From the NCBI GenBank assembly GCA_016196035.1, contig JACPYM010000036.1:1-64000 (forward strand): DNA of 64,000 nt, read 5' to 3'. Made by a program: the position numbers and the translations under genes. This stretch comes from Acidobacteriota bacterium. Lineage in GTDB: Bacteria; Acidobacteriota; Blastocatellia; RBC074. Each line of letters begins with the position of its first letter. Positions within the stretch are counted from its first letter, which is position 1. Positions 12,267 through 33,141 of this stretch are shown one piece after another. The notes beneath the pieces are model-generated. The model worked only from the letters and a program-made list of their open reading frames with translations. It ran no database searches and was not told the origin of the DNA.

Positions 12267-15191
12267 TTACCGCACGCCAAACGCGGGCACGGGCACATCC
12301 CCGCTTTGCCCCTGGTTTTGGATCAGGAACGAACCATTGCTGCTGCGTTTGACGAACCACGTCCCTGAACGTCGCCAGACTGCAATATCCGCCTTGCCGT
12401 CACCGTCATAATCCCCTGGCGTCGGAATATCGAAGTACGGCGCATAGTTCGCCCCCCACAAATCCAGCATTGGGCTCCCCGGATTCGCGCTCGGCCGGAT
12501 GTACCAAATCGAATCCGCGCCGCGCCAGATCGCCAAGTCCGCCTTGCCGTCACCGTCATAGTCCGCCGGGACTGGCGTGTCGAAGTACGGTGCATAGCCC
12601 GCCCCCCATTGAAGACTGGTCACTGTATTCGTCGAACTGTTCAGGATGATCCAGTTCGGCACAGGCGCAATGGCGTCAGGCCGGAAAACGGCCAAGTCAG
12701 TTTGGCCATCGCCGTCATAATCCGCCGGCACCGGGACGTCGCCGCTTTGCCCAAACACCTGAATCAGGAACGAGCCATTCGAACTGCGTTTGACATACCA
12801 GGTGCCATCGCGCCGCCAGACGGCGAGGTCGGTCTTGCCGTCGTTGTCATAATCGCCGGGCACCGGGATGTCGAAATACGGCGCATAGTTCGCGCCCCAG
12901 AGATCGAGAATAGCGCCGCCATCCGAAGATTTGCGGATGTACCAGATGGAATCGGCGCCGCGCCAGATGGCGTGATCGGTCTTGCCGTCGCCGTCGTAAT
13001 CGCCCGGCACGATCACGTCGTTATAGGGCGCATAACCCGCGCCCCATTGCTGCGTAACGGTTGCACTATTGCTGCTGTTGAACACTGTCCAATTCGGCGT
13101 TGGCGCAATGGTGTTGGGGCTGAAGATGCTCAGATCGGTTTTGCCGTCGCCGTCGAAATCGGCCTTCTTGGCGCGCACGATGCCGCCGCCGCCGCCGGAA
13201 GTGATCGTGAAGTTGGTGTTGGAAATATCGAAGAAGATATTGCCCAGCGCTTCGACTTTGAGGCGCGCCTGCGTGGTCGGCAGGTTCGGGATATTGATGA
13301 TGGCGGAGCCATTGTTCAGCGCGCTGCCGGCCAACACGATTGGGAAGCTCTGCCCGCCATTAGTGGAAAGCGTAATCTTCACATTGCTGCAACTGACGGG
13401 CGCGACGTTGGTATTGGCTACATTCCAGGTGACGAGTTGCGCGGTTCCACCTGGGATGGTGACGGGCGTGTTCGGTGCCGTCACGACAAAGGGGCCGGCG
13501 TCGGCGCGCGTGAAGACTTGCAGCGTGGCATCTTGAATGCCGCCGCCGCCCGCGCGGTTGTCGCGCGCGATCACTCTGAAATTCAACGTGCGCGTCGTCG
13601 TCGCCAACGCTTCGCCGACGCTGCTGGTGTTGGCCAGCAAATCGGCGAGCCTGGGAATCGTGCGCGTCGGCCCGGTCGTGGGGTTATACGAACGCATGAT
13701 CGGGCGATTGCCATTGTCAGTGTTGGGCGGGGCCGCCGTGCCGAGATCGTATTGTTCCCAGCAATAGCTCAGTGTGTCGCCGTTCACATCGCTGCCCGAC
13801 GCGGTTAAGGCAAAGGGCGTTTGCGCGGGAATCGTAAAGCTGGCACCCGCGTTGACCGTGGGCGGGTTGTTGCTTGTGCCGGTAGCAACCGCGCAGCCAC
13901 CGCCGGTGCCGTTGATGAAGGCGTAAATCTCTTCCAGGCTTTTGGCGTGAAAGTAATCATCGCTGTGCGGTTGCAAATCCTCTGCGCCGCAGATGCCGGC
14001 ATAGGCCATGATCGTCGAGCCGCTGCCGGTTTCGTAGGCTGCCGCAGCGGCGCGATTGCCGCTGCAAGAGCCGGTCGTGCCGTTGAAGGTGTGATTGCCG
14101 CCAAATTGATGGCCCATCTCGTGGGCTACGTAATCAATGTCGAAGCCGTCGCCGACGGGCGCTGAATTGCCCGTCACGCCGCGCGCTTTGCTGCCGCTGA
14201 CGCAAACGGAACGCAAGCTGGCAACGCCGCCACCGCCCGTGCTGAAAACATGTCCGATGTCATAGTTGGCCGCGCCGATCACGCTGTCGAGCGTCGTCTG
14301 ATTCTGGCCCAGCATCGTCGAGCCGCTGCTATTTGTGTACGGGTCAGTCGCGGCATTGGTGAAGATGACGCTGTCATTGTTGGCGACCAGCACCATGCGC
14401 ACGGCGACTTCGCGTTCGTAAACGCCGTTGACGCGATTCATCGAAGTCACCATCGCGGACAGCGCGCCTGCCACCGTGCCGCCGTGGAAGGCTGTGTATT
14501 CGCCCGTCGCCGCGAGCGCCAGCCGATAGGTGCGCAGCGTTGTGCCGCCGGTTAAGAAGGGACTGGCGGGCGGCGCGGGCGAGGCCGCCAATTCGCTTTG
14601 CGCGAAGCATTCAACCGCCCAACCCGGTTTGCGCAATTCGTGCTTGGCATAGCTGAGATAAAAATCCGCATTGCCTCTGGCCAACGGGTCAATGTAAGTG
14701 GTTTCGCCCGCCGACAAAATCATGGCGTGAAAGCCGGTCAGCGTGACATCGAACCGCACCGAAGCGGTTGGGTCATCCAGCCCTTGCCCGTAATAGGTTT
14801 TAAGGGCAGGGAATTTGGCGGCCAGTGCCGGCGCCATAATCGGCGCTTCGACAAAGCGGAAACGGCCCATGCCGTCTGCGGGCAGGGGCATCTCGATGAT
14901 GAGCTGTTTGGATTGTGCTTCCGGCGTGCGTTCGAGCGGTGCTTGCGCCAGCAGTTGGGCCAAGGCGGTTTGGTTCAAACGCAACCCGCGATAAGTCAGC
15001 GGGTGCACCCAGCGCTCACCGCTCACGCCGTTGAGTTGCGTCGCGGAAACATCCTGCCAGAGCGGCTCGCTTTGCGCGGCGGCTTGGCTGGGTTGAATCA
15101 GAAAATGTTGGATGAAGACAGCGAGGCAGAAGGCCAGTGTCAGACCTGCGCTGAAAACGTGCAGGCGAAGCTTGCGGGGGAAGTGTCTCAT
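12267..15191 (-). CDS. Secreted metzincin (reprolysin-like) metalloprotease with FG-GAP tail
   Basis: 974 residues with a signal peptide (hydrophobic core FSAGLTLAFCLAVFIQHFL). The zinc-binding motif HEMGHQFGGNH begins at residue 357, so this is a zinc endopeptidase of the metzincin clan. About residues 440-680 form Ig-like beta domains of the type that follows the same catalytic domain in the gene at 1-5588. The last 290 residues are the FG-GAP module ending PVPAFGVR. It lacks the four tandem units of its larger paralogue. AGGAAAC upstream is a reasonable ribosome-binding site. Secretion and protease family are well supported; the substrate is unknown. Confidence 0.88.
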   Translation of the reverse strand: MRHFPRKLRLHVFSAGLTLAFCLAVFIQHFLIQPSQAAAQSEPLWQDVSATQLNGVSGERWVHPLTYRGLRLNQTALAQLLAQAPLERTPEAQSKQLIIEMPLPADGMGRFRFVEAPIMAPALAAKFPALKTYYGQGLDDPTASVRFDVTLTGFHAMILSAGETTYIDPLARGNADFYLSYAKHELRKPGWAVECFAQSELAASPAPPASPFLTGGTTLRTYRLALAATGEYTAFHGGTVAGALSAMVTSMNRVNGVYEREVAVRMVLVANNDSVIFTNAATDPYTNSSGSTMLGQNQTTLDSVIGAANYDIGHVFSTGGGGVASLRSVCVSGSKARGVTGNSAPVGDGFDIDYVAHEMGHQFGGNHTFNGTTGSCSGNRAAAAAYETGSGSTIMAYAGICGAEDLQPHSDDYFHAKSLEEIYAFINGTGGGCAVATGTSNNPPTVNAGASFTIPAQTPFALTASGSDVNGDTLSYCWEQYDLGTAAPPNTDNGNRPIMRSYNPTTGPTRTIPRLADLLANTSSVGEALATTTRTLNFRVIARDNRAGGGGIQDATLQVFTRADAGPFVVTAPNTPVTIPGGTAQLVTWNVANTNVAPVSCSNVKITLSTNGGQSFPIVLAGSALNNGSAIINIPNLPTTQARLKVEALGNIFFDISNTNFTITSGGGGGIVRAKKADFDGDGKTDLSIFSPNTIAPTPNWTVFNSSNSATVTQQWGAGYAPYNDVIVPGDYDGDGKTDHAIWRGADSIWYIRKSSDGGAILDLWGANYAPYFDIPVPGDYDNDGKTDLAVWRRDGTWYVKRSSNGSFLIQVFGQSGDVPVPADYDGDGQTDLAVFRPDAIAPVPNWIILNSSTNTVTSLQWGAGYAPYFDTPVPADYDGDGKADLAIWRGADSIWYIRPSANPGSPMLDLWGANYAPYFDIPTPGDYDGDGKADIAVWRRSGTWFVKRSSNGSFLIQNQGQSGDVPVPAFGVR
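12276..13165 (-). repeat. FG-GAP/VCBS-like C-terminal module (copy 3)
   Basis: The repeat order matches the modules at 6180 and 18082. It starts KADFDGDGKTDLSIF and ends PVPAFGVR. The calcium-binding-like DxDGDGKxD loops are intact except for one DYDNDGKTD variant. Confidence 0.85.
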
Positions 15192-18072: not shown

Positions 18073-21000
18073 TTATCTCACGCCGTAGGCAGGCACGGGC
18101 ACATCGCCGCTTTGTCCATACCCCTGCCCCAGGAAAGAGCCGTTACTGCTGCGTAACACAAACCAAGTGGCACTGGCCGGACGCCAGACGGCGATGTCCG
18201 CCTTGCCATCTCCGTCGTAATCACCAGGGCAGGGAATGTCGTTGTAGGGGGCATAACTAGCGCCCCACAAACGCAAGATCGGTTGAAAATCGCTGCTCTT
18301 GCGGATGTACCAGACCGAATCCGCGCCACGCCAGATCGCCAGATCAGCTTTGCCATCGCCGTCATAATCGGCTGGCACAGGCGTGTCAAAGTAGGGAGCA
18401 TAGCCAGCGCCCCACTGAATGCTGGTGACGGTGTTCGTCGCGCTGTTCAGGATCAACCAGTTCGGATCAGGCGCCAGCGCACCAGGCCGGAAGATCGCGA
18501 AGTCCGTTTTGCCATCGCCATCGTAATCGGCGGGTACCGGAATGTCGCCGTTTTGCCCCAGCGCTTGAAGCAAGAACGAACCATTGCTGCTGCGTTTGAC
18601 ATACCAGGTGCCATCGCGCCGCCAGACGGCGATGTCCGTTTTGCCGTCGCCGTCGAAATCGCCCGGCGTGGGAATGTCGAAATAGGGCGCATAGTTCGCG
18701 CCCCACAAATCCAGAATGAAGCTGCCATCCGAAGACTTGCGGATGTACCAGATCGAATCCTGCCCGCGCCAGATGGCGTGATCGGCCTTGCCGTCGCCGT
18801 CGTAATCGCCGGGCACGATGGTGTCCAAATACGGTGTATAACCCGCGCCCCATTGCTGCGTGGCGGTTAGGCCATTGTTGCTGTTGAGCACCGTCCAATT
18901 CGGAGATGGCGCAATGGTGCTGGGACTCCAGACGCTCAGATCGGTTTTGCCGTCGCCGTCGAAATCGGCCTTGACGGCCACTCGATTGACCTTTAAGGAG
19001 AGCGCCTTTTGCGCCTGTACCATTTGAGAATCCGTCACGCGCACTGTGAAGTTAAACGTGCCGGCTTGTGTAGGTGTGCCCGCGAGTGCGCCAGCGTTAT
19101 TAAAACTCAAACCGGCGGGCAGTGCGCCGGATAGCAGGCTCCAGGTGTAAGCGGGTATGCCGCCCGTGGCCTGCAAGTTTTGCGCGTAGGGTTGGCCGGT
19201 TTTGCCATCCGGTAACGTGGCTGTCGCGACAGCCAAATCACCAATCAGGAGCGAGTAGTTGCGTTGGCCCAGGCAATTTTGCGCATCAATCACACTCACT
19301 ATCAGCGGGAAACTACCTGCTTGAGTCGGTGTGCCGGAAAGCAAGCCCGCCGGGGTGAAACTTAATCCCACCGGTAACGCGCCAACCAAGCCGAAAGAAA
19401 CTGCGCCCGTGCCGCCGCTTTGCATAAACGTCTGTGCATAAGGGTTGCCGATGTTACCCGCCGGGATGGTGGGCGGATTGACCGTGAGCGTCCCGCAGGT
19501 GGTGTTGTTGCAACAGGTCGCGGTCGTCGTCGTCAGGTTCAAGCGCCAGCCGGTCAGCGCGCCTGTGTCGCCATCGGCATCGTCCATCAAATAAAGGCTC
19601 CACGTGCCGTTGGGGTTCAGGTTGTTGAAGACCGTCAAACTCGGTTCGGCATACGGCCCGGCGGGCGCGGGCGCATTGAAGATGTCGCCGTCGCCATAAT
19701 TCGTGGGGCGAAACGTGCCCGCGCTGATGGCTGTGGCATTCGGCAAGGCTACGGCTGCATCGTCCAAGGTGAAGCTCAGATTGCTGAGATCGGTATCGCC
19801 ACCGCAGTCAGAGACAAGCAATACTTTTTGCCCGGTAGGCCCGACCAGCAGGATGTCCAGATCGTCAGGGTTCGTGTGCGTCAGCCCGTTCAGCGTCACC
19901 GTCACTTTGCTGACCGTGCCCGTCACGCCCGAAACATTGATCGTCGAGGGATAAGGCGTGGCTGGGCCGGTGGTCGTGGCGGGCGCGCCTGACGGAATGG
20001 TGAGCGCGGCGCTGCTGTTAAAGTTCACCGTCGTCGCCATCAACTGACCCAGGCTGATGGCGAAACTGACATTGCCAAGATTGGTCGCGCCATCCTGCAA
20101 ATTCAAGGTTGCGCTGAGCGTGCCGCCGCAGACACCCACCGCAGTGAAGGTGAAATTGCGCGCCACCGCCGGGCCGCCTGCCGCGAGCACGCCGTAGGTT
20201 TGCGCCGCGCTTGGATTGATGACGCCGCCCGTAGCCTGCAAGGTCGCGATCAGGTTGGACGTGCCAAGCGTGCCTACGTTTTGCAGTGCCAGACTCATCG
20301 TCACGGTCTCAGCCGGATCAACCATGTTATTGGCGGGCAGACAGGTTTCCGTGACCAGCGTGGCAGTTCCGCCGCTGATCACGGGCTGCGTGGTTTGGGT
20401 CGCATTGGCAATCACCAGAGCAAAATCCTGATCAAGCGCGCCGCCAAAATTCGGCACACCATCACCGGCGATATTGGTGGCTTTGACCGTGACGACGAAT
20501 GAACCGGTCACACCGGCAGGCAGCGTGACGCTTTCGACATTGTTGCGCGTATCGGCCAAACCGCCCGTGACTGAAAATTCGCCTTGATAGACGTTGCCTT
20601 TGTAAGTTTGGCCGTTGAGCGTGACTTCGAGATCGAGATTGTTGACAAAGGCATTGCCGACCGTCGAACCGGGCGCATCCGTCCAGGCCAGCGTAATGCG
20701 CAGCGGCTTGCTTGAATCCGCAATCACGCCGGTAAAGACGCGCTGCTGGCCGGAACTGGTAAAGATTTCGGCGGCGAGTTGATCGTGCAGGACAGTCTGT
20801 TGTGCAAACAACCCGAAGAAGCTGGTTAAGTTGACCTCGCCCAGGCCCTGGTTGTTTGACCAGCGGCTGTCATTGGCGTTGTTGCCGGTCAGGTAGCGCG
20901 CCGTATTCAGCAGCACGGCTTTGGTCATCGCGGGGCTAGGCGCGGTTAGTCCTTCATTTAGGAATCGTTGGCGCACCAGAGCCGCTGCTCCTGCCACCGC

Positions 21001-22980
21001 CGGGGCCGCGTGGCTCGTGCCGGAAGAGGCCGTATAAAACTGCTGCCCGCCAGGAAAGAATTTGATGCCGCCCGGCCCGCCGCATGTCGTGATCCCAAAG
21101 GTCGCGTTTAGGTAACAATCGGCAGCCGTGCCATTGCTGCCCGGATTCGAGGCCTGAAAAACACCGCCCGTGATATGTGTGCCGGGCGCGACCAGATCGG
21201 GTTTGTTGCGGCCATCGGCGGTTGGCCCCCGGCTGGAGATATTCGCTACGTCGTTGGCGTTGTTGGCTTGGTCATCGGCGATGTTGCAACCATCCGCGCC
21301 ATTAAACGCATTGACGCCTTCCGCCGCGCCCACCGTGATGACGTTTTTTGCCGAGCCGGGCGAACCGATGGAACCGGAGACCGCGCCATTGCCTGCCGAA
21401 AACACGATGACCTGCTCTTGATTCCCGGCGGCGGGGACGGGGGCATTGCTGGGTTGCGCATCGCGCACCAGCGCGTCATAGGCCTGCGCATCAATCGTGT
21501 AAGCCCCATTGGTGGGCGCTCCCCAACTGTTTGACGAAATGCGCGCGCCATCCTGATAAGCGCGGGCTTCAACATTGATCAGGTTGGGAAAGGTGTAACG
21601 CGAGGGGTCAAAAATAATGGTCGAACCCAGACGCACAAAAGGCGCGACACCCAAGCCGTAGCGGAAGGCTTGCCCGTCGGCGTGCGGAAAAATGTTGAAC
21701 GGATTGCCCGATGGAACAAAGCCCCCAATGATGTGCGCATTGAGCGTGCCGTGGCCGTCGCAACCTTGCAGCGTACTGGTCAGATTCGGCGTCCCTTCAA
21801 AACGGGCATAGGCGATACGGCTGCTGCTGGCAATGTTGCCGCCTAGATAAAGCGCGAAGTGATTGGGGAGCGTGGTGGCGTTATCAACCCCGCTATCCGA
21901 AACGTTGACGGCGAAATTCGAGCCGCTGAATTGCGCCTGGGTGAGGCCCTGGGCATTGAGATAACTCAGATAATCAATCGCGTTCGGTTGGCCGCTCGTC
22001 AGGTTGCCCGTCAGGATGATGTTCTGGCGCTCGTCCTGCTTGACCGGTTCGGCGTAGCGCATGATCGAGACGATGTCGCGTCGGCCCACTAAAGCTTTTT
22101 CAACCGCGCTCAAGGGCAGCCGCACGATCACATTCAGATAGTTCAGCACTCGATACTGCGACTTGATGGGATCGAGTTTTAGCGCATTAATGATTTGCAG
22201 CGTGTCCGGGTTGACGGTGGCATCGTTGACCAGTTGGATGGCGAACAGATCGTTTTGATTCGGAATTGTTTGTGCGCCCTTTTGCGCGCGCAGTTCGGCC
22301 ACGCTGGGATCCAGCTTGAAAGACTCTTCATAGCCGCCATCCCACTGCACATAGGCGCGGCTCGTCGCCCATTCCTGCAATCGCATCAATTCCGCCGCAT
22401 CGCCATAAACCAAGTAAGTATTGTGCGGGACATAGGCGATGATCGTGACGCCGGTTTTGAGCAGTTCGTTGTACCAAAATGGTTTGATCGGGCCGGCGAA
22501 TTGCACCAAACGCAACGCTGGCCCGGCTGCAGCCTGGCGGTCTTGCTGCGCACGTGCTTGTTGCAACGCAATGTTTACAGTGTCCAGCACGCCGCTGTTG
22601 AGCAGGATCAGGTTTTCCTCGTCTCGCAACTCGTAGCCATTTTCCGGGAGCGCATCAAGCATGGCCTCATCAACACTGAGCAGCCACTCGCGCTCATACT
22701 GCGCCAGCAGCCTTGCGCCACGGGCGACAAGGGTTTCTGTGAGAACGCTGTCGCGCAGCCGCACCTTGTGATTTCGGTGCGGGCTGCGATAGGCGCTTTG
22801 ACGAGTTGTTTGCGATGGCGCGGCTGGCCTGGCGGCTTGCGAAATAGGGTGCCCGGAAAACAGAGGAAACGCACAGGCAAGCACGAGCAAAAAAAACAGG
22901 CTGAAACGCCAGCCCCGGCTGGTTGGTGTCAACCGCCGGTTGGCGAAACGCGCACACGCAAATTTAGTTGTCTTCAGCAT
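18073..22980 (-). CDS. Secreted subtilisin-like (S8) serine protease with P-domain, Ig-like and FG-GAP domains
   Basis: About 1635 residues from the ATG at 22980; another ATG in the same frame is at 22995 and neither has a clear ribosome-binding site, so the start is uncertain. The signal segment is RFSLFFLLVLACAFPLF. The S8 triad is visible: Asp362 (VSDSGVD), His410 (GHGTLNAH) and Ser656 (GTSHAAP). Then come beta-rich domains, a proprotein-convertase P-domain (DDLDILLVGP...NGTWSLYLMDDADGD), two putative Ig (He_PIG) domains (LPAGLSFNNAGALAGTPTQAG type) and the shared FG-GAP tail ending PVPAYGVR. It is predicted to be an extracellular endoprotease. The final module is nearly the same as in three unrelated neighbours. 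Confidence 0.88.
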   Translation of the reverse strand: MLKTTKFACARFANRRLTPTSRGWRFSLFFLLVLACAFPLFSGHPISQAARPAAPSQTTRQSAYRSPHRNHKVRLRDSVLTETLVARGARLLAQYEREWLLSVDEAMLDALPENGYELRDEENLILLNSGVLDTVNIALQQARAQQDRQAAAGPALRLVQFAGPIKPFWYNELLKTGVTIIAYVPHNTYLVYGDAAELMRLQEWATSRAYVQWDGGYEESFKLDPSVAELRAQKGAQTIPNQNDLFAIQLVNDATVNPDTLQIINALKLDPIKSQYRVLNYLNVIVRLPLSAVEKALVGRRDIVSIMRYAEPVKQDERQNIILTGNLTSGQPNAIDYLSYLNAQGLTQAQFSGSNFAVNVSDSGVDNATTLPNHFALYLGGNIASSSRIAYARFEGTPNLTSTLQGCDGHGTLNAHIIGGFVPSGNPFNIFPHADGQAFRYGLGVAPFVRLGSTIIFDPSRYTFPNLINVEARAYQDGARISSNSWGAPTNGAYTIDAQAYDALVRDAQPSNAPVPAAGNQEQVIVFSAGNGAVSGSIGSPGSAKNVITVGAAEGVNAFNGADGCNIADDQANNANDVANISSRGPTADGRNKPDLVAPGTHITGGVFQASNPGSNGTAADCYLNATFGITTCGGPGGIKFFPGGQQFYTASSGTSHAAPAVAGAAALVRQRFLNEGLTAPSPAMTKAVLLNTARYLTGNNANDSRWSNNQGLGEVNLTSFFGLFAQQTVLHDQLAAEIFTSSGQQRVFTGVIADSSKPLRITLAWTDAPGSTVGNAFVNNLDLEVTLNGQTYKGNVYQGEFSVTGGLADTRNNVESVTLPAGVTGSFVVTVKATNIAGDGVPNFGGALDQDFALVIANATQTTQPVISGGTATLVTETCLPANNMVDPAETVTMSLALQNVGTLGTSNLIATLQATGGVINPSAAQTYGVLAAGGPAVARNFTFTAVGVCGGTLSATLNLQDGATNLGNVSFAISLGQLMATTVNFNSSAALTIPSGAPATTTGPATPYPSTINVSGVTGTVSKVTVTLNGLTHTNPDDLDILLVGPTGQKVLLVSDCGGDTDLSNLSFTLDDAAVALPNATAISAGTFRPTNYGDGDIFNAPAPAGPYAEPSLTVFNNLNPNGTWSLYLMDDADGDTGALTGWRLNLTTTTATCCNNTTCGTLTVNPPTIPAGNIGNPYAQTFMQSGGTGAVSFGLVGALPVGLSFTPAGLLSGTPTQAGSFPLIVSVIDAQNCLGQRNYSLLIGDLAVATATLPDGKTGQPYAQNLQATGGIPAYTWSLLSGALPAGLSFNNAGALAGTPTQAGTFNFTVRVTDSQMVQAQKALSLKVNRVAVKADFDGDGKTDLSVWSPSTIAPSPNWTVLNSNNGLTATQQWGAGYTPYLDTIVPGDYDGDGKADHAIWRGQDSIWYIRKSSDGSFILDLWGANYAPYFDIPTPGDFDGDGKTDIAVWRRDGTWYVKRSSNGSFLLQALGQNGDIPVPADYDGDGKTDFAIFRPGALAPDPNWLILNSATNTVTSIQWGAGYAPYFDTPVPADYDGDGKADLAIWRGADSVWYIRKSSDFQPILRLWGASYAPYNDIPCPGDYDGDGKADIAVWRPASATWFVLRSSNGSFLGQGYGQSGDVPVPAYGVR
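18082..18978 (-). repeat. FG-GAP/VCBS-like C-terminal module (copy 4)
   Basis: It starts VKADFDGDGKTDLSVW and ends PVPAYGVR, with the same alternation of DYDGDGKxD loops and WGA-YAPY phrases as copies 2 and 3. The last block diverges somewhat (RPASATWFVLRSSNGSF). Confidence 0.85.
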
Positions 22981-23673
22981 AGCCGGATAACGCATAGACG
23001 AATGCAGCAAAAAGTCGGAGCAACTTCGGTTTTCGACGCCGAACCATAGACGATAGCCTTGCCGGTAAGTGAGGCTCGGGCCAGGAACAAGGTGGATTAG
23101 AGTGCCGCCCAGTGAGTGCAAAAAAACTAAAAAGGCCGCGCCAGCATGGCCTTGACAATTGTTTTGCTGGAAACGCGGGCTTGATTTCCGATCGGCGGCG
23201 AGTGTACAGGATGGGGTAGAGGCCGTCAACGCAGCCCTTTGTGAGCGGAAAAATGTGTAATTAACTGTGGCTTATCTCACTCCTAAGCGGAATGTTAGGC
23301 TGTGTTTCCGGTGACATCCCGCTATCCCAAGCTGGAACCAGCCCTCAGTCGTCCGTCGGCAGCGCGCCCTAGGCAGGCTTCCCAAACCAAGGCGGGCGAA
23401 AAATAAAGATAAGACAGGACATCAGTTGCCCCGCGCTGGCCCGCGCGCCAGTCGCTTTCCTCTCCCGGACAACGCCGCTCCCTATACAGTGAGTGCGGGC
23501 AGCGCTTTATTTACCGGTTGTCCGCTTTCTCAAACAACTGCTGTCCTAAATTCGCAATTTGTTCAGTACCGATAATTCAATTACATCTGCAAAGGTGAAC
23601 GCGCCGCAACTTGAGGGGAAAATCAGCACGAAGGGGCGGCGGCAGGAAGGGTTTGGCGTAGGAGAATTGTCAG
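22981..23673. other. Divergent intergenic region between the subtilase and the PAS kinase
   Basis: About 690 bases with no gene recognised. The left part reads in frame with the subtilase but has no signal-peptide-like or conserved text, so it is treated as non-coding. The right end holds TAGGAGAA, the ribosome-binding site of the kinase. No clear promoter boxes were found. Confidence 0.5.
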
Positions 23674-26600
23674 ATGAAATCGTCGAATGGGCATAAGGCC
23701 GCCATCGTCGAAGCGGGACAGACGAAAAACTTGAATGGCCGCCAGGTGAAAAATGGCAAGGCGGCTGAGCCTCTGCCTGACCTCCTGCCACTCGATGAAG
23801 TCGAAACCCGCCCCAATTTTGACACCCCTTCAACCAGAAGCACCCGTTCGCTCAAACCGCGCAAAGGCCAGACGGGCAAATTGCAGCAATGGCTCGCGCA
23901 GTTTGACGAAAGCCAGACGCAGAAAAAAAACACTGTCAGTGAAAGCCTCGGCTTTTTGCAGACGCTGGTGGAAGGCAGCCCTGACGCCATTTTCATCAAA
24001 GATGGCGAGGGCCGGTATCTGTTTGTCAACGATACTTTCGGGGCCTGGATGCAGCGCGATCCGCACGCGGTGCTCGGCAAAACCGATACGGAACTGTTCC
24101 ACCAAGCCATTGCGCAAAAGCTCGCCGAATCCGATCCGCAAGTCCTGGCGGATGGCCGTGCCTTCACCGAAGAAATCTGGCTCGATGACGGCGCGCCAGA
24201 GAATGCGGGCGCTGAGCGCAGCCTCTTAACCACCAAAGTTCCCTTTCGTGACAAAGACAATCAAATCGTAGGTCTCTTCGGCATGGCGCGGGACAACACC
24301 TTGCGCAAATTGATGGAAGAGGAATTGCGCGAGGCCAAGCAATTCAACGAACAGGTCATTGCCCACGCCCGTGAAGGCGTGGTGGTTTACGACGCGGATT
24401 TGCGCTATATCGTCTGGAACTCGTTTATGGAAGAGTTCTCCGGCTTGCCGCGCCACCGCGTCATCGGGCGTCACCCGCTGGAAGTCTTCCCGACCATTCG
24501 TGAATCGGGGATGATGGAACAGATTGAGCGGGCCTTGGCAGGGGAAACGATCATCGGCGCGGATACGCTGGTGAATTCAGCACAAGGCGCCAAGACGGCC
24601 TGGGCGCGCTGCCTGTTCGGCCCCTTGCGAGACGCCAAAGGCGATGTCACGGGGGTCATTGGCCTGATTTCCGACATCAGCGAATACAAGCGCACCGAAG
24701 CGCGGCTGCGCCGTTCCCAGCAGTTCAATCATCAAGTGATCGCCAACGCCAGCGAAGGCATCGCGGTGTATGACCGCGAATTGCGCTGCATGGTTTGGAA
24801 TCCGGTGCTGGAAGACCTGAGCGGTCTAATGGGCGACGATGTCCTGGGCCGTCCGATTCTGGAATTGGCGCCTGCGTGGCGCGCGGCCGGGTTGGGCCAA
24901 ATGCTGCAACAGGCCTTGCAGGGCGATACGGTCGAAGCGCCTGATTTTTTGATGGGGCCGCAAGGGGATCGTTGGGTTTCGGCGCGTTACAGCCCGCTCA
25001 CGGATAATGACGAACAGGTCATTGGCGTGATCGGCATTTTGACTGATGTGACGGCGCGGCGGCAGGCCGAAGACGCTCTGCGCGAATCACAACAGTTCAA
25101 TCAGCAGATTATTGATAGCGCCCTCGAAGGCATCGCCGTTTACGACCGCGAGCTAACTGTCGTCGTTTGGAACCCGGCGATGGCCGAGATCACCGGCACG
25201 CATAGCGCGCAGGTGCTGGGTGAAAATGTCATCCAGGTCTTTCCGTATTTGGAAAGTACGGAATCGCCGGCGTATTGGCGGCGCGCGCTGGCCGGCGAGA
25301 CAATTCGCGGGCGGCAGTTTGCATTTAGCGGGCATTCGGATAAATGGGTCGAGGCCTCTTATGGGCCGTTGTGCAATCCGCACGGCGAGATTGTCGGGGT
25401 GCTCGTCACCATGCGCGACATCACCGCCCGTAAGCGCGCCGAAGAAGCCTTGCAAGCCTCGCAGGAATTCAATGGGCAGATCATCACCAACGCGCGCGAC
25501 GGTATCATCGTTTATGACAGCACGCTCACGTATCTGCTCTGGAATCCCGCGATGGAAGAGATCAGCGGCTGGCGGGCGGAAGACCTGGTAGGGCGGCGCG
25601 CCGTCGAAGTCTTCCCGGCGATGTCCGGCGCCGGGATTTATGAACGGCTGGAAAGGGCATTGCGGGGCGAGACGCTGCCGCGCGAAGATATTGCCTACGA
25701 TTTTGGGCTGAAAAAAGGGTTTTACTCACGGCTGGATGCGCCGTTGCGCGACGAAACCGGCGCGATTGTCGGCGTGATTTCCACCGTCAGCGAGATCACC
25801 GACCGCAAAAAAGCCGAAGCCGAATTACTGGAATCGAAACAGTTCAACCAGGAAATCATCGCCAGCGCGAACGAAGGTATCGTGGTTTATGACCGCGATT
25901 TTTACGTCAGAATCTGGAACCCCGCGATGGAAACGTTTAGCGGGTTACCGGCCGCTCAAGTCCTGGGCCAAAATATCTTCGACCTTTATCCTGAGTTTCT
26001 TGAGACGGCTGTCCCCGAACGCTTGAATGAGGCGTTGGCAGGGAAGACCTCGGTCAGTAAAGACTTCCAATTACGGACTGCCGGTCTCGCGCAGCCCGCC
26101 TGGCTGGCGGCCCGGTATGGCCCGCATCGCAATCGCGCCGGCGAAGTCGTCGGCGTGATTTCCGTCATCCGCGATGTGACGGCGCGCAAATTGGCCGAGG
26201 ATCAATTGCGTAAGAGCGAAGAGCGCTATCGCGAAATCCTGGCCACCTTGCAGGATGGTTATTGGGAACTCGATCTGAACGCGCAACTGAGCTTCTTTAA
26301 CGAAGCCGTCTGCGAAATCTTTGGGCGCACGCAGGAAGAAATGAATGGCCGGGGCGTGCAGCAATTCCTGGCGGAGGAAACCAAACAACGCGCCCATGAG
26401 ATGTTCCGGCAGTTGCTCAAAACCGGCGTGCCGGTCAAGACCTTTGAGTTTGAAATCGTGCGCCCCGATGCGACGGCGCGCGCGCTGGAGACTTCGATCA
26501 CCCTGATGCGCCAGGCGGATGGTTCTCCCGGCGGGTTCCGCGGCATCGTGCGGGATGTGACGGAACGCAAGCAGGCCGAACGCCTCATCAAAGAGCGCGA

Positions 26601-29600
26601 CGAACGCTTCCGCGCCTTGATCGAAAACAGTTACGACGGCATCGTGCTCATCTCGGCAGACAACAAAACGCTCTATATCAGTCCCTCTTATACGCGCCAG
26701 CACGGTTATTCTTTGGAAGAAGTGCTCGATACTACGGGTGCCGACCGCATCCATCCGGATGATTGGCCCAAGCTCAATCAATTGCGCGAAAACCTCGCCC
26801 CCGGCGCGAGCGTCCCGATTGAATATCGCTTGTGCGCCAAAACCGGCGGTTATCGCTGGGTTGAGGGCCGCATCACCAATTTGCTCGAAGAGCCGAGCGT
26901 GTGCGCTTACGTACTGAACTTCCACGACATTTCCGAACGCAAAGCCGCCGAGACGGAACGCGCCCAGGCCGAAGCCAAATTGCAGGCGAGCGAGGCCCGG
27001 TTCCGCGCGCTCGTCGAAAACGGGTTTGACGGCATCTCGCTGCAAGATGCCGAAGGCCGCATTACTTATGTCAGCCCTGCCTATGAGCGCGTGCTGGGCT
27101 ATTTGCCGGAAGAGGTGCTGGGCCGCCAACCGCTGGCGCGCGTGCATCCGGACGATGTGGATGAAGCGCTGCGCGCCCGGGAAGAGGTTGGGCAAACGCC
27201 CGGCGCCAGCCGCTCGCTTCAATTCCGCACGCAGCATAAAGACGGGTCATGGCGTTGGTTGGAAGTGACCATGACCAATTTGTTGCAGCAGCCGGATGTG
27301 GGCAGCATCATCGTGAATTTCCGCGACATCACCGAGCGGCGTGCTTCGGAAGTGGCCGTGCGTGAGAGCGAAGAAAAGTTCCGCGCGATTTGGGACAACG
27401 CGCTGGATGGCATGTTGATCGTCAATGACGACATGCAATATGTGGATGCCAACCCCGCTGCCTGCCGGTTATACGGCGTCACGCGCGCAGAACTGCTCGC
27501 CCAGACGATGGCCGATTTTGTCAAACCTGACAACAAGGATGTCGCCCGGCGTTCGCTGCAAAAACTGGTGGAGCAGGGCGAGCGCACCGGCCATTTTCAA
27601 CTGCTACGCAGCGATCACACCTTGCATGAGATCGAATACAACGCGCGCGCCAATTTCCTGCCGGGGCTGCATCTTTCGATGATGCGCGATGTGACCGAAC
27701 GTCACCGCGCCGCCGAATCGTTGCGCACCTCAGAAGAGCAGTATCGTTCGTTGGTCAGTGTGCTCGAAGAAGGCATCCTAATGCTCGATTCCGAAGGCGA
27801 ACTGCTGACTTGCAACGAGAGTTGCGAACGCATTCTGGGCGCGCGCCGCGACGCCTTGCGCGAACGCGCCTTAATCAATCCCGAATGGCGCGCCATCCGC
27901 GAAGATGGCACGCCTTTCCCCGCCGATGAAGCGCCCTCCGTCGTGACTTTGCGCACCGGCAAGCCCTGCTCCGGCGTCGTGCTGGGCGTCATCCGGCCGG
28001 ATGGAAATCACAAGTGGCTTTCGGTTAGCTCACAACCGGTTTTCCATCAGGATTCGGATGAACTGCAAGCGGTGGTGCTTTCGATCAGCGACATTACGCA
28101 ACGCAAACATGCCGAAGCCGCCTTGCGCGAATCGGAACTGCGGTTTTCGGCGGCCTTTGACGATAGTCCGCTGGCCGTGTCGTTGACTGAACAGGCGACC
28201 GAATGTTTCGTCAACGTCAATCAAGCCTGGTGCAAGCTCTTCGGCATCACTTCCGTCGAAGCCATCGGGCACACCGAGCTTGAACTGGGCCTGTGGGAAG
28301 CGGCCGATGAGCGCGCTGAATTGTACCGGCAAATGGCCTTGCACGGCGGCGCCTGGGAACAGGAAGCCCGTCTGAAAACGTGCGCTGGCCGCATCGTCCA
28401 GGCGCTGGTTTCCGTGCGGGCCATGACGCTGGGCCAAAAACAATATGTGATTGTGCTGGTGCATGACATCACCGAGCGCAAACTGGCTGAGGAGCGCTTT
28501 GCGAAAGCCTTCAATGCCAATCCGAGTCCGATGGCGATTAGCTCTTTACCGGCAGGGAAGATCGTCCAGGTGAATGAAACCTGGGCCAGCTTTACCGGCT
28601 TCGATTTCGACGAGACACGCGGGAAGACCGCCGCTGAATTGGAGATGTGGGTGGAGCCCGGGCACCGCGAACGGTTCTTTGCGCTGTTAGAGCAACAGGG
28701 TCGAGTGCGCGAATTCGAAACCTGCTTGCGCAGAAAAGACGGCGCGGTGCACACCATTTTGCTCAGCGGCGAAACGATTGATTTGGGCGGGCAACCGCAC
28801 ATGCTTTCCTCCGTGACGGACATTACCGCTCGCAAGCAGGCCGAAGAAGACGTGCGTGTTTCGCAAGAGCGCTTTGCCAAAGCGTTCAACGCCTGCCCCG
28901 AACCGATGGTCTTACAACGCCTGGAAAATGGCTGTTATATCAGTGTGAACCGGGCCTGCCTCACCGCGCTGGGCTTGGAAGAAGACGAGATGCTCGGCCG
29001 CACCGCCGATGCGATTGATCTGTGGGTGAATGCCGACCAGCGCCGCGCCATGGGCGAGACCCTGCGCAAGGTCGGTGAAGTGCGCGACGTCGAATGCGAC
29101 TACTATGTGGGCAGCGGCCGCATCGGGCACTTTTTGGTTTCCGCCGAAATCATCGAGATCGAGGGCGTCCAACACGTGCTCTCGGTGGCGCGTGACATCA
29201 CCGAGCGCAAGCGCGCCGAAGAGGCGCTGCGCGCTTCGGAAGAGCGCTTTGCCAAAGCCTTCAATTCCAGCCCGCAACCAATTGCCATCACCTCTTTGCC
29301 GGAAGGCCGCTTCGTTACCGTCAACGAAGCCTGGACGCGCGTGATGGGGCACAGTGTTGAAGATACGATTGGCCGCGATGCCGTCGAACTGGATCTCTGG
29401 GTCAACCGCGCGCAACGCAAACAGATGAACGCCAAGCTCAGCCGCGGCGAAACCATCCGCGATCAAGAGCTGACGCTGCGCGCCAAAAACGGCGAATTGC
29501 GCTATCTGATCGTTTATGGCGAAGCCATCCAATTGGCCGGTGAAGACTATCTGTTGCTGACGGCGCAGAACGTGACCGAACGCAAATTGGCAGAGCAGGC

Positions 29601-30651
29601 CCTGCGCGCGACCGAAGAACGCTTCCGGTTGTTATTCAAACGCAATCTGGCTGGTGTTTATCGCGCGACTGCCGAAGGCCAATATCTGGAATGCAATGAC
29701 GCTTATGCGACGATGTTCGGCTTTGCCTCGCCCGAAGAGTTAAAGGACACCGAGGCCTGGTGGATCTACCCGGATCAGCAACTGCGCGCCGAGATGCTCG
29801 AACAATTGCGCCGTCAAGGCGGTTTGAATAACTATGAAATGCAATTGCGGCGCAAAGACGGCAGTGCCGTGTGGGCGTTGGCCAATATCACTTACCGCGA
29901 GGCCGATGGGCAGACCCCGGCGATCATCGAGGGCATCGCGCTGGACATCACCAAACGTAAACTCGATGAAGCCAAACTGGCCGAATCGCGCGAACAGTTG
30001 CGCGCCCTGTCCGCCCGGCTGGCGGCCATTCGCGAAGAGGAACGCACCGCCATCGCCCGTGAGATACACGATTCGCTGGGCCAGATGTTGACCGGGCTGA
30101 AGCTGGATGTGGCCTGGCTGCATAAACGTTTGACCAACGGCACGTCGGGCGATGCCCAGGAAGCCCTGGTGCAAAAGGCCGAGGGCATGGCGAGTTTACT
30201 GGATGACACCATCCAAACCGTGCGCGATCTGGCGACGCAATTACGACCGGGCGTGCTGGATACGCTGGGCCTCACCGCCGCCATCGAATGGCAGGTGCAG
30301 GATTTCCAGGCGCGCACCGGCATCGAATGCGAAATCTGGCTTTGCCCGGAACCCAAAGATTTGCCCCAGGAAAAAGCCACCGCGTTGTTCCGCATCCTGC
30401 AAGAGATTCTGACCAACATCATCCGGCACGCTGACGCCACCCGCGTGGTGATTCATTTGCTGCCCAGAGAAAACGCCTTGCTCCTGAGTGTGGCGGATAA
30501 CGGGCGCGGCATTACTACCGGCAATCTGCGCGATGGCAAATCGCTGGGGTTGCTGGGCATGCGCGAACGCGCGCTGATGGTCGGCGGTGAGGTTGATTTT
30601 GAAGGTTCCCATGAACGCGGTACGACCGTGACGGTCAAGGTGCCGGTGTAA
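23674..30651 (+). CDS. Giant soluble sensor histidine kinase with 16 PAS domains (HisKA_3/NarL-type)
   Basis: 2325 residues, no signal peptide or membrane segment. After a low-complexity N-terminus, 16 PAS/PAC units follow at a spacing of about 120-135 residues, from about 95 to 2100. Most end in DITERKxAE-like linkers. Units 2-6 (218-845) share QFNQxII...EGIxVYDRxLxxxxWNPAME, and units 12-15 share the FAKAFNxxPxPMAI pattern, so both sets arose by internal duplication. The kinase core is HisKA_3 with REIHDSLGQ (phospho-acceptor His2132), then a HATPase with DNGRGI and LGLLGMRERA. It should autophosphorylate and pass phosphate to the response regulator 51 bases downstream. The number of PAS units suggests several cytosolic cues or a long signalling rod. 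Confidence 0.93.
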   Translation: MKSSNGHKAAIVEAGQTKNLNGRQVKNGKAAEPLPDLLPLDEVETRPNFDTPSTRSTRSLKPRKGQTGKLQQWLAQFDESQTQKKNTVSESLGFLQTLVEGSPDAIFIKDGEGRYLFVNDTFGAWMQRDPHAVLGKTDTELFHQAIAQKLAESDPQVLADGRAFTEEIWLDDGAPENAGAERSLLTTKVPFRDKDNQIVGLFGMARDNTLRKLMEEELREAKQFNEQVIAHAREGVVVYDADLRYIVWNSFMEEFSGLPRHRVIGRHPLEVFPTIRESGMMEQIERALAGETIIGADTLVNSAQGAKTAWARCLFGPLRDAKGDVTGVIGLISDISEYKRTEARLRRSQQFNHQVIANASEGIAVYDRELRCMVWNPVLEDLSGLMGDDVLGRPILELAPAWRAAGLGQMLQQALQGDTVEAPDFLMGPQGDRWVSARYSPLTDNDEQVIGVIGILTDVTARRQAEDALRESQQFNQQIIDSALEGIAVYDRELTVVVWNPAMAEITGTHSAQVLGENVIQVFPYLESTESPAYWRRALAGETIRGRQFAFSGHSDKWVEASYGPLCNPHGEIVGVLVTMRDITARKRAEEALQASQEFNGQIITNARDGIIVYDSTLTYLLWNPAMEEISGWRAEDLVGRRAVEVFPAMSGAGIYERLERALRGETLPREDIAYDFGLKKGFYSRLDAPLRDETGAIVGVISTVSEITDRKKAEAELLESKQFNQEIIASANEGIVVYDRDFYVRIWNPAMETFSGLPAAQVLGQNIFDLYPEFLETAVPERLNEALAGKTSVSKDFQLRTAGLAQPAWLAARYGPHRNRAGEVVGVISVIRDVTARKLAEDQLRKSEERYREILATLQDGYWELDLNAQLSFFNEAVCEIFGRTQEEMNGRGVQQFLAEETKQRAHEMFRQLLKTGVPVKTFEFEIVRPDATARALETSITLMRQADGSPGGFRGIVRDVTERKQAERLIKERDERFRALIENSYDGIVLISADNKTLYISPSYTRQHGYSLEEVLDTTGADRIHPDDWPKLNQLRENLAPGASVPIEYRLCAKTGGYRWVEGRITNLLEEPSVCAYVLNFHDISERKAAETERAQAEAKLQASEARFRALVENGFDGISLQDAEGRITYVSPAYERVLGYLPEEVLGRQPLARVHPDDVDEALRAREEVGQTPGASRSLQFRTQHKDGSWRWLEVTMTNLLQQPDVGSIIVNFRDITERRASEVAVRESEEKFRAIWDNALDGMLIVNDDMQYVDANPAACRLYGVTRAELLAQTMADFVKPDNKDVARRSLQKLVEQGERTGHFQLLRSDHTLHEIEYNARANFLPGLHLSMMRDVTERHRAAESLRTSEEQYRSLVSVLEEGILMLDSEGELLTCNESCERILGARRDALRERALINPEWRAIREDGTPFPADEAPSVVTLRTGKPCSGVVLGVIRPDGNHKWLSVSSQPVFHQDSDELQAVVLSISDITQRKHAEAALRESELRFSAAFDDSPLAVSLTEQATECFVNVNQAWCKLFGITSVEAIGHTELELGLWEAADERAELYRQMALHGGAWEQEARLKTCAGRIVQALVSVRAMTLGQKQYVIVLVHDITERKLAEERFAKAFNANPSPMAISSLPAGKIVQVNETWASFTGFDFDETRGKTAAELEMWVEPGHRERFFALLEQQGRVREFETCLRRKDGAVHTILLSGETIDLGGQPHMLSSVTDITARKQAEEDVRVSQERFAKAFNACPEPMVLQRLENGCYISVNRACLTALGLEEDEMLGRTADAIDLWVNADQRRAMGETLRKVGEVRDVECDYYVGSGRIGHFLVSAEIIEIEGVQHVLSVARDITERKRAEEALRASEERFAKAFNSSPQPIAITSLPEGRFVTVNEAWTRVMGHSVEDTIGRDAVELDLWVNRAQRKQMNAKLSRGETIRDQELTLRAKNGELRYLIVYGEAIQLAGEDYLLLTAQNVTERKLAEQALRATEERFRLLFKRNLAGVYRATAEGQYLECNDAYATMFGFASPEELKDTEAWWIYPDQQLRAEMLEQLRRQGGLNNYEMQLRRKDGSAVWALANITYREADGQTPAIIEGIALDITKRKLDEAKLAESREQLRALSARLAAIREEERTAIAREIHDSLGQMLTGLKLDVAWLHKRLTNGTSGDAQEALVQKAEGMASLLDDTIQTVRDLATQLRPGVLDTLGLTAAIEWQVQDFQARTGIECEIWLCPEPKDLPQEKATALFRILQEILTNIIRHADATRVVIHLLPRENALLLSVADNGRGITTGNLRDGKSLGLLGMRERALMVGGEVDFEGSHERGTTVTVKVPV

Positions 30652-30702: not shown

Positions 30703-31329
30703 ATGTTCAAAGTTTTATTGGTGGATGATCACGCCGTCGTCCGGCGCGGTATGCAACAAATTATTGCCGAAGAGGCCGACCAATGGCTGACAGGCGAAGC
30801 GCCCAATGCCACCGAAGCGTGGCAGCGTTTGCGCAGTGAACCGTGGGACGCCGCCGTGCTCGACCTGACCATGCCCGACAAGAACGGCCTGGATTTACTG
30901 GTCGAGATCAAACGGGAGTTCCCGGCGCTGCCCTGCTTGCTATTAAGCATGCATCCGGAAGATCAATTCGCTTTGCGGGCGTTGAAACTGGGCGCGTCCG
31001 GCTATTTGACCAAAGAAAGCGCGCCGCACGAATTACTCAACGCGTTGAAAAAGATTGTCTGCGGCGGACGCTATATCAGCCAGACGCTGGCCGAAAAATT
31101 GGCCTTCCCCGAAGAGAGCAATCGCCCGCAACCCGAACTGCTCTCGGAGCGCGAATATCAGGTTTTGAAAATGCTCGCGTCCGGCAAGACTTCGACCGAG
31201 ATTGCCAACATGCTGGCGCTCAGCGTGAAAACCATCAGCACCTATCGCGCGCGCATCCTGACCAAAATGAAAATGCGCAACAACGCCGAATTGACCTATT
31301 ACGCCGTGCAGAACGGCCTGGTCGGTTGA
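30703..31329 (+). CDS. NarL/FixJ-family response regulator
   Basis: 208 residues. Receiver domain (1-120) with acidic pair DD8-9, phospho-acceptor Asp54 (VLDLTMP) and conserved Lys104 (LTKES). A LuxR-type HTH (about 140-205) reads LSEREYQVLKMLASGKTSTEIA...SVKTISTYRARIL. It has an AAAGGAGAAAG ribosome-binding site. It directly follows the 16-PAS kinase of the matching HisKA_3 class, so the two form a two-component system. The target genes are not evident. Confidence 0.95.
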   Translation: MFKVLLVDDHAVVRRGMQQIIAEEADQWLTGEAPNATEAWQRLRSEPWDAAVLDLTMPDKNGLDLLVEIKREFPALPCLLLSMHPEDQFALRALKLGASGYLTKESAPHELLNALKKIVCGGRYISQTLAEKLAFPEESNRPQPELLSEREYQVLKMLASGKTSTEIANMLALSVKTISTYRARILTKMKMRNNAELTYYAVQNGLVG

Positions 31330-31371: not shown

Positions 31372-31695
31372 GCTGGGCTACTTGCTTAGCGCCAATCATG
31401 CTAGACTCCGCCCGCATCTCGTAGTGAAACCCTTGCAGTTAGCCGCGCGTGGCGCGTGGCTGGCTGTAACTGTCCAGCGTTTCGACGAATTGCCAGTTGT
31501 CACGGTACGGACATCATCGTTGCACCCCAAGTCCGCCCGGTAAGCCGTTTGGCCGTGGCGGGAAATAATTCAGCCCCAAAGAAAATCCTGTTCTTACCTA
31601 ACTCAGTGGTCTGCTGGCCCGGTGCCCGCCTTAGCTGGCTGTCCATTTTTACCGGCGTGCTGCTTACGCCGTGTTGTTTGCGAAGGAGCTTCTCG
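31372..31695. other. Intergenic region before the secreted hypothetical protein
   Basis: The downstream frame stays open leftward to 31456, but the text is unlike a protein N-terminus (many Cys and Arg) and the next gene has a well-placed internal start. Treated as non-coding leader. Confidence 0.5.
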
Positions 31696-33141
31696 ATGAA
31701 CAAAGAATTGCCGTGTGATCAAGCAAGCGTTTTGCCAGGCCGTGTGCGCGGCATGGTGGTGAGAAATGTCCTGCCCATTCTCTTCGTGCTGCTCTCTGCC
31801 GGTGTCAGCGCGCGTGCCGGCGATGCGCTGTATTTTACCTTTCAAGATGCCACGGATTTGCCCGCCAACCCTTCGAGCATTTTGATTCAGTCGCCGAGTT
31901 TCTTAGACGTTCCGGCAGGCGCGGTGCTCAAAGTTCATCTCATGCGCGGCGATGTACGGCTGTCCACCAGCACGTTGACGTTCGCGCAAGCCGTCAGTAG
32001 TGCGGCTTTGTTACCCGCGCGGCAATTTGCTTCTTTTGTGCCGCAAACTGAAACCAACGTGCAAGGCGAAGTATTGCCGGGCGTTACCCTCGTGGCCGGC
32101 AATGCGGATTTGAACGCCGTGACGCAGGCGCCCTTGCAATATCGGTTTCTTTGGGAGCTTTCCGCTGGTGTGATGGGCACGCCCAGCCGCACGGTGATCA
32201 CCGGCCCGCGCGAGATGTTCGTCATTAAATTCCTGGATTTGAAATTGTGCGCCGTCTCAGCGGCCTCGAAACTGGATGATCAGAAACCCGGTTCGCTGCT
32301 CTTTTTCACCCGCTACACATCCAGCGCCAGCAATGCCGCGCGCGAAAATACGCAACTCAGTCTGACCAATACCAATCCCGGCACTAGCGCGCTTGTGCGG
32401 CTCTTTTTGGTCAATAGCTCGACCTGCGAAGTCAGCAACTTCACGCTGTGTTTGGCCGCCCAGCAAACCGTGAGCTTTGCCTTGAGCGATCTCGATCCGG
32501 GCGTGAAAGGTTACATTATGGCGGTCGCCACCGATGCTGGCGGACGTCCCACCGATTTCAACTGGCTGATTGGGCAAGCCGTCGTCAAGCAACCGCTCGG
32601 CGGGCGCAACGTGTCGGCCTTGCTCAAAGCCTACACCGTCGCCAAGCGCAAAGAAGGAATCGTGACGGCGGATGGCAACAATCAGGCAGAGATGATTTTC
32701 GACAATGTGAATTACGACCGGTTGCCGGCGCAATTGGGGTTCGATGGTGTGCCGACGCAACTCAACGGTTTGAATACGACCCAGCTTTCGTTGTTTCGAC
32801 CCCTGGCGAATTTTGCCGGGAGCGGGAGTTCGACGAACCTGCAAATCACGGGCTTCGGCACGGGCGCTTCAAATCAGGTCGTTTCAACCAGCGGCACCAC
32901 GCCGTTGTCCTGCCTGACGGATGTGAACATCGGCTCGTTGCGCTTGGCGCCGCTAACTGTCAGCAATTTAATTCAGCCCGGCAACTTTGCCTGGTTTTCC
33001 GTTTCGACAACGGAGTTGTTGCCGCTGTTGGGAACGCAACTCACCAGCGGCGAGGTCAATGGCGGCACGACCGCGCGTGTGTTGAGTTACAGCACGGAAT
33101 ATCGCATCAAAATTCCGGTCAGCAGCGCCGCCTGTCCATAG
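31696..33141 (+). CDS. Secreted hypothetical protein
   Basis: 481 residues from the ATG at 31696, preceded by AAGGAG at 10 bases and followed by a signal peptide (VVRNVLPILFVLLSAGVSARA, cleaved before GDALYFTF). The mature part is rich in Ser, Thr, Leu and Asn, with beta-strand-like stretches and no repeats, catalytic motif or anchor that I recognise. Phrases such as FFTRYTSSASNAARENTQLSLTN and VRLFLVNSSTCEVSNFTLC suggest a beta-sandwich fold. It stands alone between the two-component operon and the convergent pseudouridine synthase. Function unknown. Confidence 0.8.
   Translation: MNKELPCDQASVLPGRVRGMVVRNVLPILFVLLSAGVSARAGDALYFTFQDATDLPANPSSILIQSPSFLDVPAGAVLKVHLMRGDVRLSTSTLTFAQAVSSAALLPARQFASFVPQTETNVQGEVLPGVTLVAGNADLNAVTQAPLQYRFLWELSAGVMGTPSRTVITGPREMFVIKFLDLKLCAVSAASKLDDQKPGSLLFFTRYTSSASNAARENTQLSLTNTNPGTSALVRLFLVNSSTCEVSNFTLCLAAQQTVSFALSDLDPGVKGYIMAVATDAGGRPTDFNWLIGQAVVKQPLGGRNVSALLKAYTVAKRKEGIVTADGNNQAEMIFDNVNYDRLPAQLGFDGVPTQLNGLNTTQLSLFRPLANFAGSGSSTNLQITGFGTGASNQVVSTSGTTPLSCLTDVNIGSLRLAPLTVSNLIQPGNFAWFSVSTTELLPLLGTQLTSGEVNGGTTARVLSYSTEYRIKIPVSSAACP

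Follow-up and report, generated by a model that had tools for sequence, protein, structure and literature searches.

A soluble HisKA_3 histidine kinase with sixteen PAS units in an Acidobacteriota genome

The window is the whole stretch of DNA that was analysed, 64,000 nucleotides from an Acidobacteriota bacterium (assembly GCA_016196035.1, contig JACPYM010000036.1, positions 1 to 64,000 of the forward strand). It contains an uninterrupted frame at 23674-30651 (+), with zero internal stops, which encodes a histidine kinase of 2325 amino acids and is followed by a response regulator gene. The features of this locus, together with a related kinase elsewhere in the same genome, are as follows.

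23674..30651 (+): soluble multi-PAS histidine kinase gene, 2325 aa (open reading frame and Pfam)
23935..24348 (+): PAS unit U1 including linker; counterpart G001a_01 in the congener, 41% identity
24349..26229 (+): PAS units U2-U6, set 1, mutual identity 34-45% (pairwise table and unit tree)
25102..25473 (+): PAS unit U4, the sole unit with Trp at the FAD-type F-alpha position, as in the congener (residue alignment)
26230..26610 (+): PAS unit U7, with FixL as nearest solved relative and the FixL haem His replaced by Ala (structure-sequence search and alignment)
26611..27381 (+): PAS units U8-U9, a 44% identical pair with a 22-residue linker between them (pairwise table and linker count)
27382..28146 (+): PAS units U10 and U11; U11 groups with core-kinase unit 2 (unit tree, SH-aLRT 99)
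28147..29625 (+): PAS units U12-U15, set 2, 26-39% identical, a subtype common to other proteins; the U12-U13 linker has 8 residues (tree and linkers)
29626..30000 (+): PAS unit U16, grouping with the last core-kinase unit (unit tree, SH-aLRT 96)
30040..30258 (+): HisKA_3 dimerisation/phospho-acceptor domain, residues 2123-2195, His 2132 (Pfam)
30376..30645 (+): HATPase_c, residues 2235-2324 (Pfam)
30703..31329 (+): response regulator (Response_reg and LuxR/GerE HTH), the probable partner (Pfam, NCBIfam)
L020:807-7343: second giant kinase of the genome (G000:C62), 2178 aa, 15 PAS, HisKA_3, N-terminal hydrophobic segment

Overlapping Pfam models for PAS run from the N-terminal part of the protein to about residue 2100; they are followed by HisKA_3 (49.5 bits against a cut-off of 24), with the phospho-acceptor His 2132 inside the motif REIHDSLGQ, and by HATPase_c (53.6 bits against 26.4). 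Three counting routes agree on sixteen PAS units: the motif that closes each unit (fifteen ends of the 'DIT' type plus a first end, RDNTLRK), a profile made from the units themselves, and the curated NCBIfam model TIGR00229 (sensory_box), which covers sixteen stretches. In a genome scan, PF13426 (PAS_9) alone finds sixteen places in the kinase gene, fifteen of them over its cut-off. At E up to 0.001 the same model matches 67 places in the 9.6-Mb genome; roughly one in four of the genome's PAS_9 matches thus falls in this one gene. A simple hydropathy scan found no membrane helix in the kinase (top 19-residue Kyte-Doolittle mean, 1.23); the paralogue with 15 PAS units, which served as positive control, peaks at 2.62 near its N-terminus. 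The original prediction of sixteen PAS domains in one soluble kinase, reaching about residue 2100 without a membrane helix, is thus confirmed at 23674-30651. The protein is a HisKA_3 (NarX-like) histidine kinase with sixteen PAS units and intact kinase motifs.

Kinases of the NarX/UhpB type share with the window kinase the HisKA_3 and HATPase_c domains and an adjacent Response_reg-GerE protein; unlike them, it has no membrane sensor. It scores far below the cut-offs of the NCBIfam equivalogs NarX, NarQ and UhpB and is not assigned to a specific subfamily. The regulator gene begins 51 bp past the kinase stop, and a GGAG stretch precedes its ATG; from this position the LuxR-type regulator is the probable partner of the kinase. 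The second giant kinase has a comparable arrangement: it carries a giant PAS array and HisKA_3, and is followed by a LuxR-type regulator whose frame overlaps its own. As the two regulators are 54% identical, these appear to be two related kinase-regulator cassettes. The second kinase differs from the window kinase in its N-terminal hydrophobic segment, and its PAS units mostly group among themselves.

PAS proteins average two PAS domains, according to PMC10468136; the same source gives kinases with more than 14 PAS domains in Phytophthora and, for some cyanobacteria, single histidine kinases with as many as 19. The latter (e.g. UniProt A0A1Z4MZL8 from Aulosira; PMC10468136) resemble the window kinase in being a single polypeptide with a very long array and a histidine kinase output; they are longer (19 versus 16) and belong to another phylum; the comparison is with their published description. 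Sixteen is therefore not a record, since 19 is in print. Sixteen had been described as far above the usual number; this is right against the published mean of two, where sixteen is exceptional, but the number is not unprecedented, given the printed 19 and the 15 in the same genome. Among chosen long frames of relatives, which are not a census, the next highest counts are 15 (same genome), 12-13 (genome G081) and 10 (four proteins). The literature titles and abstract openings that were searched hold no account of the window protein or of any kinase from Acidobacteria with so large a number of PAS domains. The window kinase is exceptionally long but of a known sensor-kinase kind.

The G081 frame (G081:C32, L036:3309-12170, 2954 aa) has 12-13 mostly weaker PAS matches and, by eye, a HisKA_3-like end. 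It was rejected as a larger array, as it begins with a CheB/CheR-like region (also by eye) and so has a different architecture.

The units are not recent copies of each other. In the pairwise table of all sixteen, the most alike are U4 and U6, with 45% protein identity, and no two units exceed 54% identity in DNA; U2-U6 lie at 49-54% and U12-U15 at 46-53%. Identities this low (protein up to 45%, DNA up to 54%) make the copies within each set old. Relationships were read from a tree of 74 rows, which has few columns and many open forks. U2-U6 form a clade with six units of the congener (SH-aLRT 97). U12-U15 fall inside a 24-row set (SH-aLRT 96) with units from the genome's other giant kinase and from other genera; because this set contains units of other proteins, U12-U15 represent a shared PAS subtype, and a private duplication burst for them is unsupported. 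The two sets of internal copies described earlier are thus real groups in outline, but at 34-45% and 26-39% protein identity they are not close. Separate bursts of duplication hold up as episodes in outline; they are old, predating the split from the congener, and the U12-U15 subtype is not private to this kinase. A third pair, U8-U9 (44%), had not been described before.

The congener (G001, same genus) has a frame with eight PAS units by the unit profile on contig JABFSD010000964.1 (C1149); the frame runs off the contig end. In the tree, U1-U7 pair with congener units 1, 2, 3, 4, 5, 7 and 8 in order, at 40-58% identity, and one congener unit is extra; set 1 has five units in the window kinase versus six in the congener. 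Judged by identity only, U2-U6 have their expected partner as best match in four of five cases. The exception is U6, for which congener unit 4 is closer (45%) than the tree partner (43%). A second congener contig, separate from the one with the U1-U7 counterparts, carries eight PAS units and is open at both ends; it includes units matching U12, U13 and U14 in order, plus others, and a counterpart of U15 that is placed only through an unresolved fork. The short stretch after the congener's U7 counterpart could represent the beginning of a GAF domain, to judge from a weak match to the kinase of genome G008 (25% over 80 columns); Pfam gives no GAF match for that stretch. Across 162 genomes of the class, U2-U6 are matched in 11 (E up to 1e-30), and matches above 34% identity occur only in the window's genome and in the congener.

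Shorter kinases of the same family, here called core kinases, were found in genomes G006, G008, G009 and G010; they match the last PAS units and the kinase part at 47-52%. Orthology of the kinase domains is taken from best matches. In the three examined with Pfam, a GAF domain, PAS units and HisKA_3/HATPase_c are present: G006 and G009 have GAF, four PAS and HisKA_3, while G008 has GAF and five PAS. The G010 kinase (four PAS) was read by the unit profile alone. G009 is the one core kinase included in the unit tree; its four units group, in the same order, with U8/U9 (99), U11 (99), the U12-15 type and U16 (96). The core kinases therefore share homologous last PAS units and the kinase with the window protein, but have four to five PAS units rather than sixteen and a GAF domain which the window kinase lacks. 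In four of four examined, the next gene downstream encodes something other than a response regulator, so the pairing of kinase and regulator is not kept throughout the family. By eye, the core GAF-PAS kinases (L021, L022, L023, L024) adjoin methyltransferase-like and MarR-like genes.

Some of the array seems to derive from a shorter kinase of the family. On the simplest reading of the sequences, a GAF kinase with four PAS units would have been enlarged by internal duplication and by addition in front, and the window lineage would have lost the GAF domain.

Linkers, taken as the residues between consecutive PAS cores, keep a common phase. In the window kinase, thirteen of the fifteen are 15 residues long, one has 22 and one has 8; all are in one heptad phase. 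The wider survey covered 127 adjacent unit pairs from 20 proteins, each with two or more units, after six shorter loci repeating the same genes had been left out. Of these pairs, 107 were scored (including 14 from the window kinase), 15 were set aside for partial profile coverage and five had more than 60 residues between the units. Among scored linkers, 104 of 107 equal 1 modulo 7; the remaining three have 11 or 18 residues. Linkers of other than the modal length are in phase in 13 of 16 cases, with p of about 4e-9 if the pairs were independent, which they are not because resemblance to the window kinase guided the choice of proteins. Seven of the set-aside linkers read 15, and eight read other values, including some out of phase.

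A monomer AlphaFold model of U2-U4, built from an alignment of four rows (mean pLDDT 84.7), has three PAS folds joined by single unbroken helices at 123-145 and 247-269; its pTM of 0.43 leaves the relative placing of the units and the overall shape unsettled. Foldseek matches for this model are PAS-linked sensors, namely DosP, LOV-HK, PpsR, NifL and FixL. Coupling along heptad-spaced linkers of tandem PAS domains, and their likely role between consecutive PAS modules, are described in PMC6798134; the signalling helix is described in PMC1592074. FixL, MmoS, DosP and YF1/YHF have the same PAS-helix-PAS architecture with heptad-spaced linkers; in contrast to the window kinase, they have few PAS units and known cofactors. 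The earlier suggestion of a long signalling rod is supported, since linkers of 8, 15 or 22 residues keep one heptad phase and the modelled linker helices are uninterrupted.

The reference chains for the cofactor alignment were FixL, MmoS PAS-A and YtvA. The residues that we take to be their cofactor His, Trp and Cys were assigned with published helix names as a guide. The diagnostic positions and these helix names come from PMC10468136. Aligned to the references, none of the sixteen units has the FixL haem His at F-alpha and none has the adduct-forming Cys of LOV domains. U7, for which a sequence search of solved structures gives FixL, has Ala at the haem-His position and a His one place on; the latter is not kept in the congener. 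FAD-binding PAS domains of the NifL, MmoS and Aer clusters combine a Trp at F-alpha with a His or Asn. The FAD-type Trp at F-alpha occurs in one of the sixteen units, U4, and in its congener counterpart. U4 is without the accompanying His at the aligned place; hmmalign puts the Trp in the same column as the reference and MAFFT one column off. The Trp of U4 may be a weak lead to FAD binding. In the same kind of search, the U2-U6 profile hit phytochrome PAS, MmoS and LOV-like domains, and the U12-U15 profile hit the unnamed sensor 3bwl and a LOV photoreceptor. The idea that the array integrates many ligands finds no backing in the cofactor residues checked (haem His 0/16, LOV Cys 0/16, FAD-type Trp 1/16); other ligands are possible. 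Haem or LOV sensing as a property of the whole array is rejected for these residues. A single alignment column (83) is kept in orthologues yet differs among paralogues, and may give a thin indication of unit-specific roles.

We consider it probable that the protein is a cytoplasmic two-component sensor kinase of the HisKA_3 (NarX/UhpB) type, in which a long PAS array is carried on a coiled-coil rod and has grown from a GAF kinase with four PAS units. The kinase would form a parallel homodimer whose sixteen PAS pairs sit one after another on an unbroken coiled coil. Whichever unit bound a ligand or changed its redox state, the helix would respond by twisting or shifting, and this movement would pass in register to HisKA_3 and set the balance of kinase and phosphatase activity toward the adjoining LuxR-type regulator. 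Growth would have proceeded by inserting or adding PAS units to the ancestral kinase, whose own four units would correspond to U9, U11, the U12-15 type and U16, with each new unit bringing a whole-heptad linker.

A possible though somewhat unlikely alternative is that most units no longer sense, so that the array is a neutrally grown spacer or scaffold with one or a few active PAS domains. The tested cofactor signatures are absent in fifteen of the sixteen units, the number of units in set 1 varies between congeners (five versus six) and another, related kinase of the genome carries 15 units; all three facts would suit a spacer. However, a decaying spacer need not keep the U1-U7 counterparts in order and at 40-58% identity, and all sixteen units still score as PAS. 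It is decidedly unlikely that protein-protein contact, through a docking rod or a large oligomer, is the array's chief task in place of sensing small molecules; PAS units do double as dimerisation modules, and the multi-PAS protein PpsR oligomerises through PAS helices (PMC3949515), but no client is hinted at by the gene neighbourhood, and kinase and regulator both retain their motifs.

An assembly artefact, in which the unit number reflects a tandem duplication made in assembly, is extremely improbable. Short-read contigs can in principle mis-assemble repeats, and no actual sign of this was found. A top DNA identity between units of 54% is far too low for a repeat error, and the separately assembled congener has U1-U7 in the same order; assembly duplication, which had been named beforehand as the refuting case, is excluded on these grounds.

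The probable reading, that of a sensing rod grown from a shorter kinase, could be extended further. The array might be a register-locked, growable input bus: heptad-phased blocks would be gained and lost whole, each long-lived unit would keep its own identity between species by reading its own signal, and one kinase would sum sixteen inputs via one coiled coil along which sixteen dimers are stacked. This extension is speculative and, on balance, unlikely. The kinase does offer a clean test case for the reach of an allosteric signal along tandem PAS units; since unit number differs between congeners while linker phase is kept, the effects of distance and register could be told apart. Beyond this, the kinase is a big representative of an architecture that is already well known.

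Two further observations concern the surroundings of the kinase. Behind the regulator, a frame of 561 aa (31456-33141, +) has no Pfam or NCBIfam match. On the other side, three large FG-GAP repeat proteins are encoded on the minus strand (6171-11909, 12267-15191 and 18073-23229); domains in this cluster include DUF7948/SBBP/BACON, a reprolysin-like metallopeptidase and a subtilase, and its products are probably secreted.
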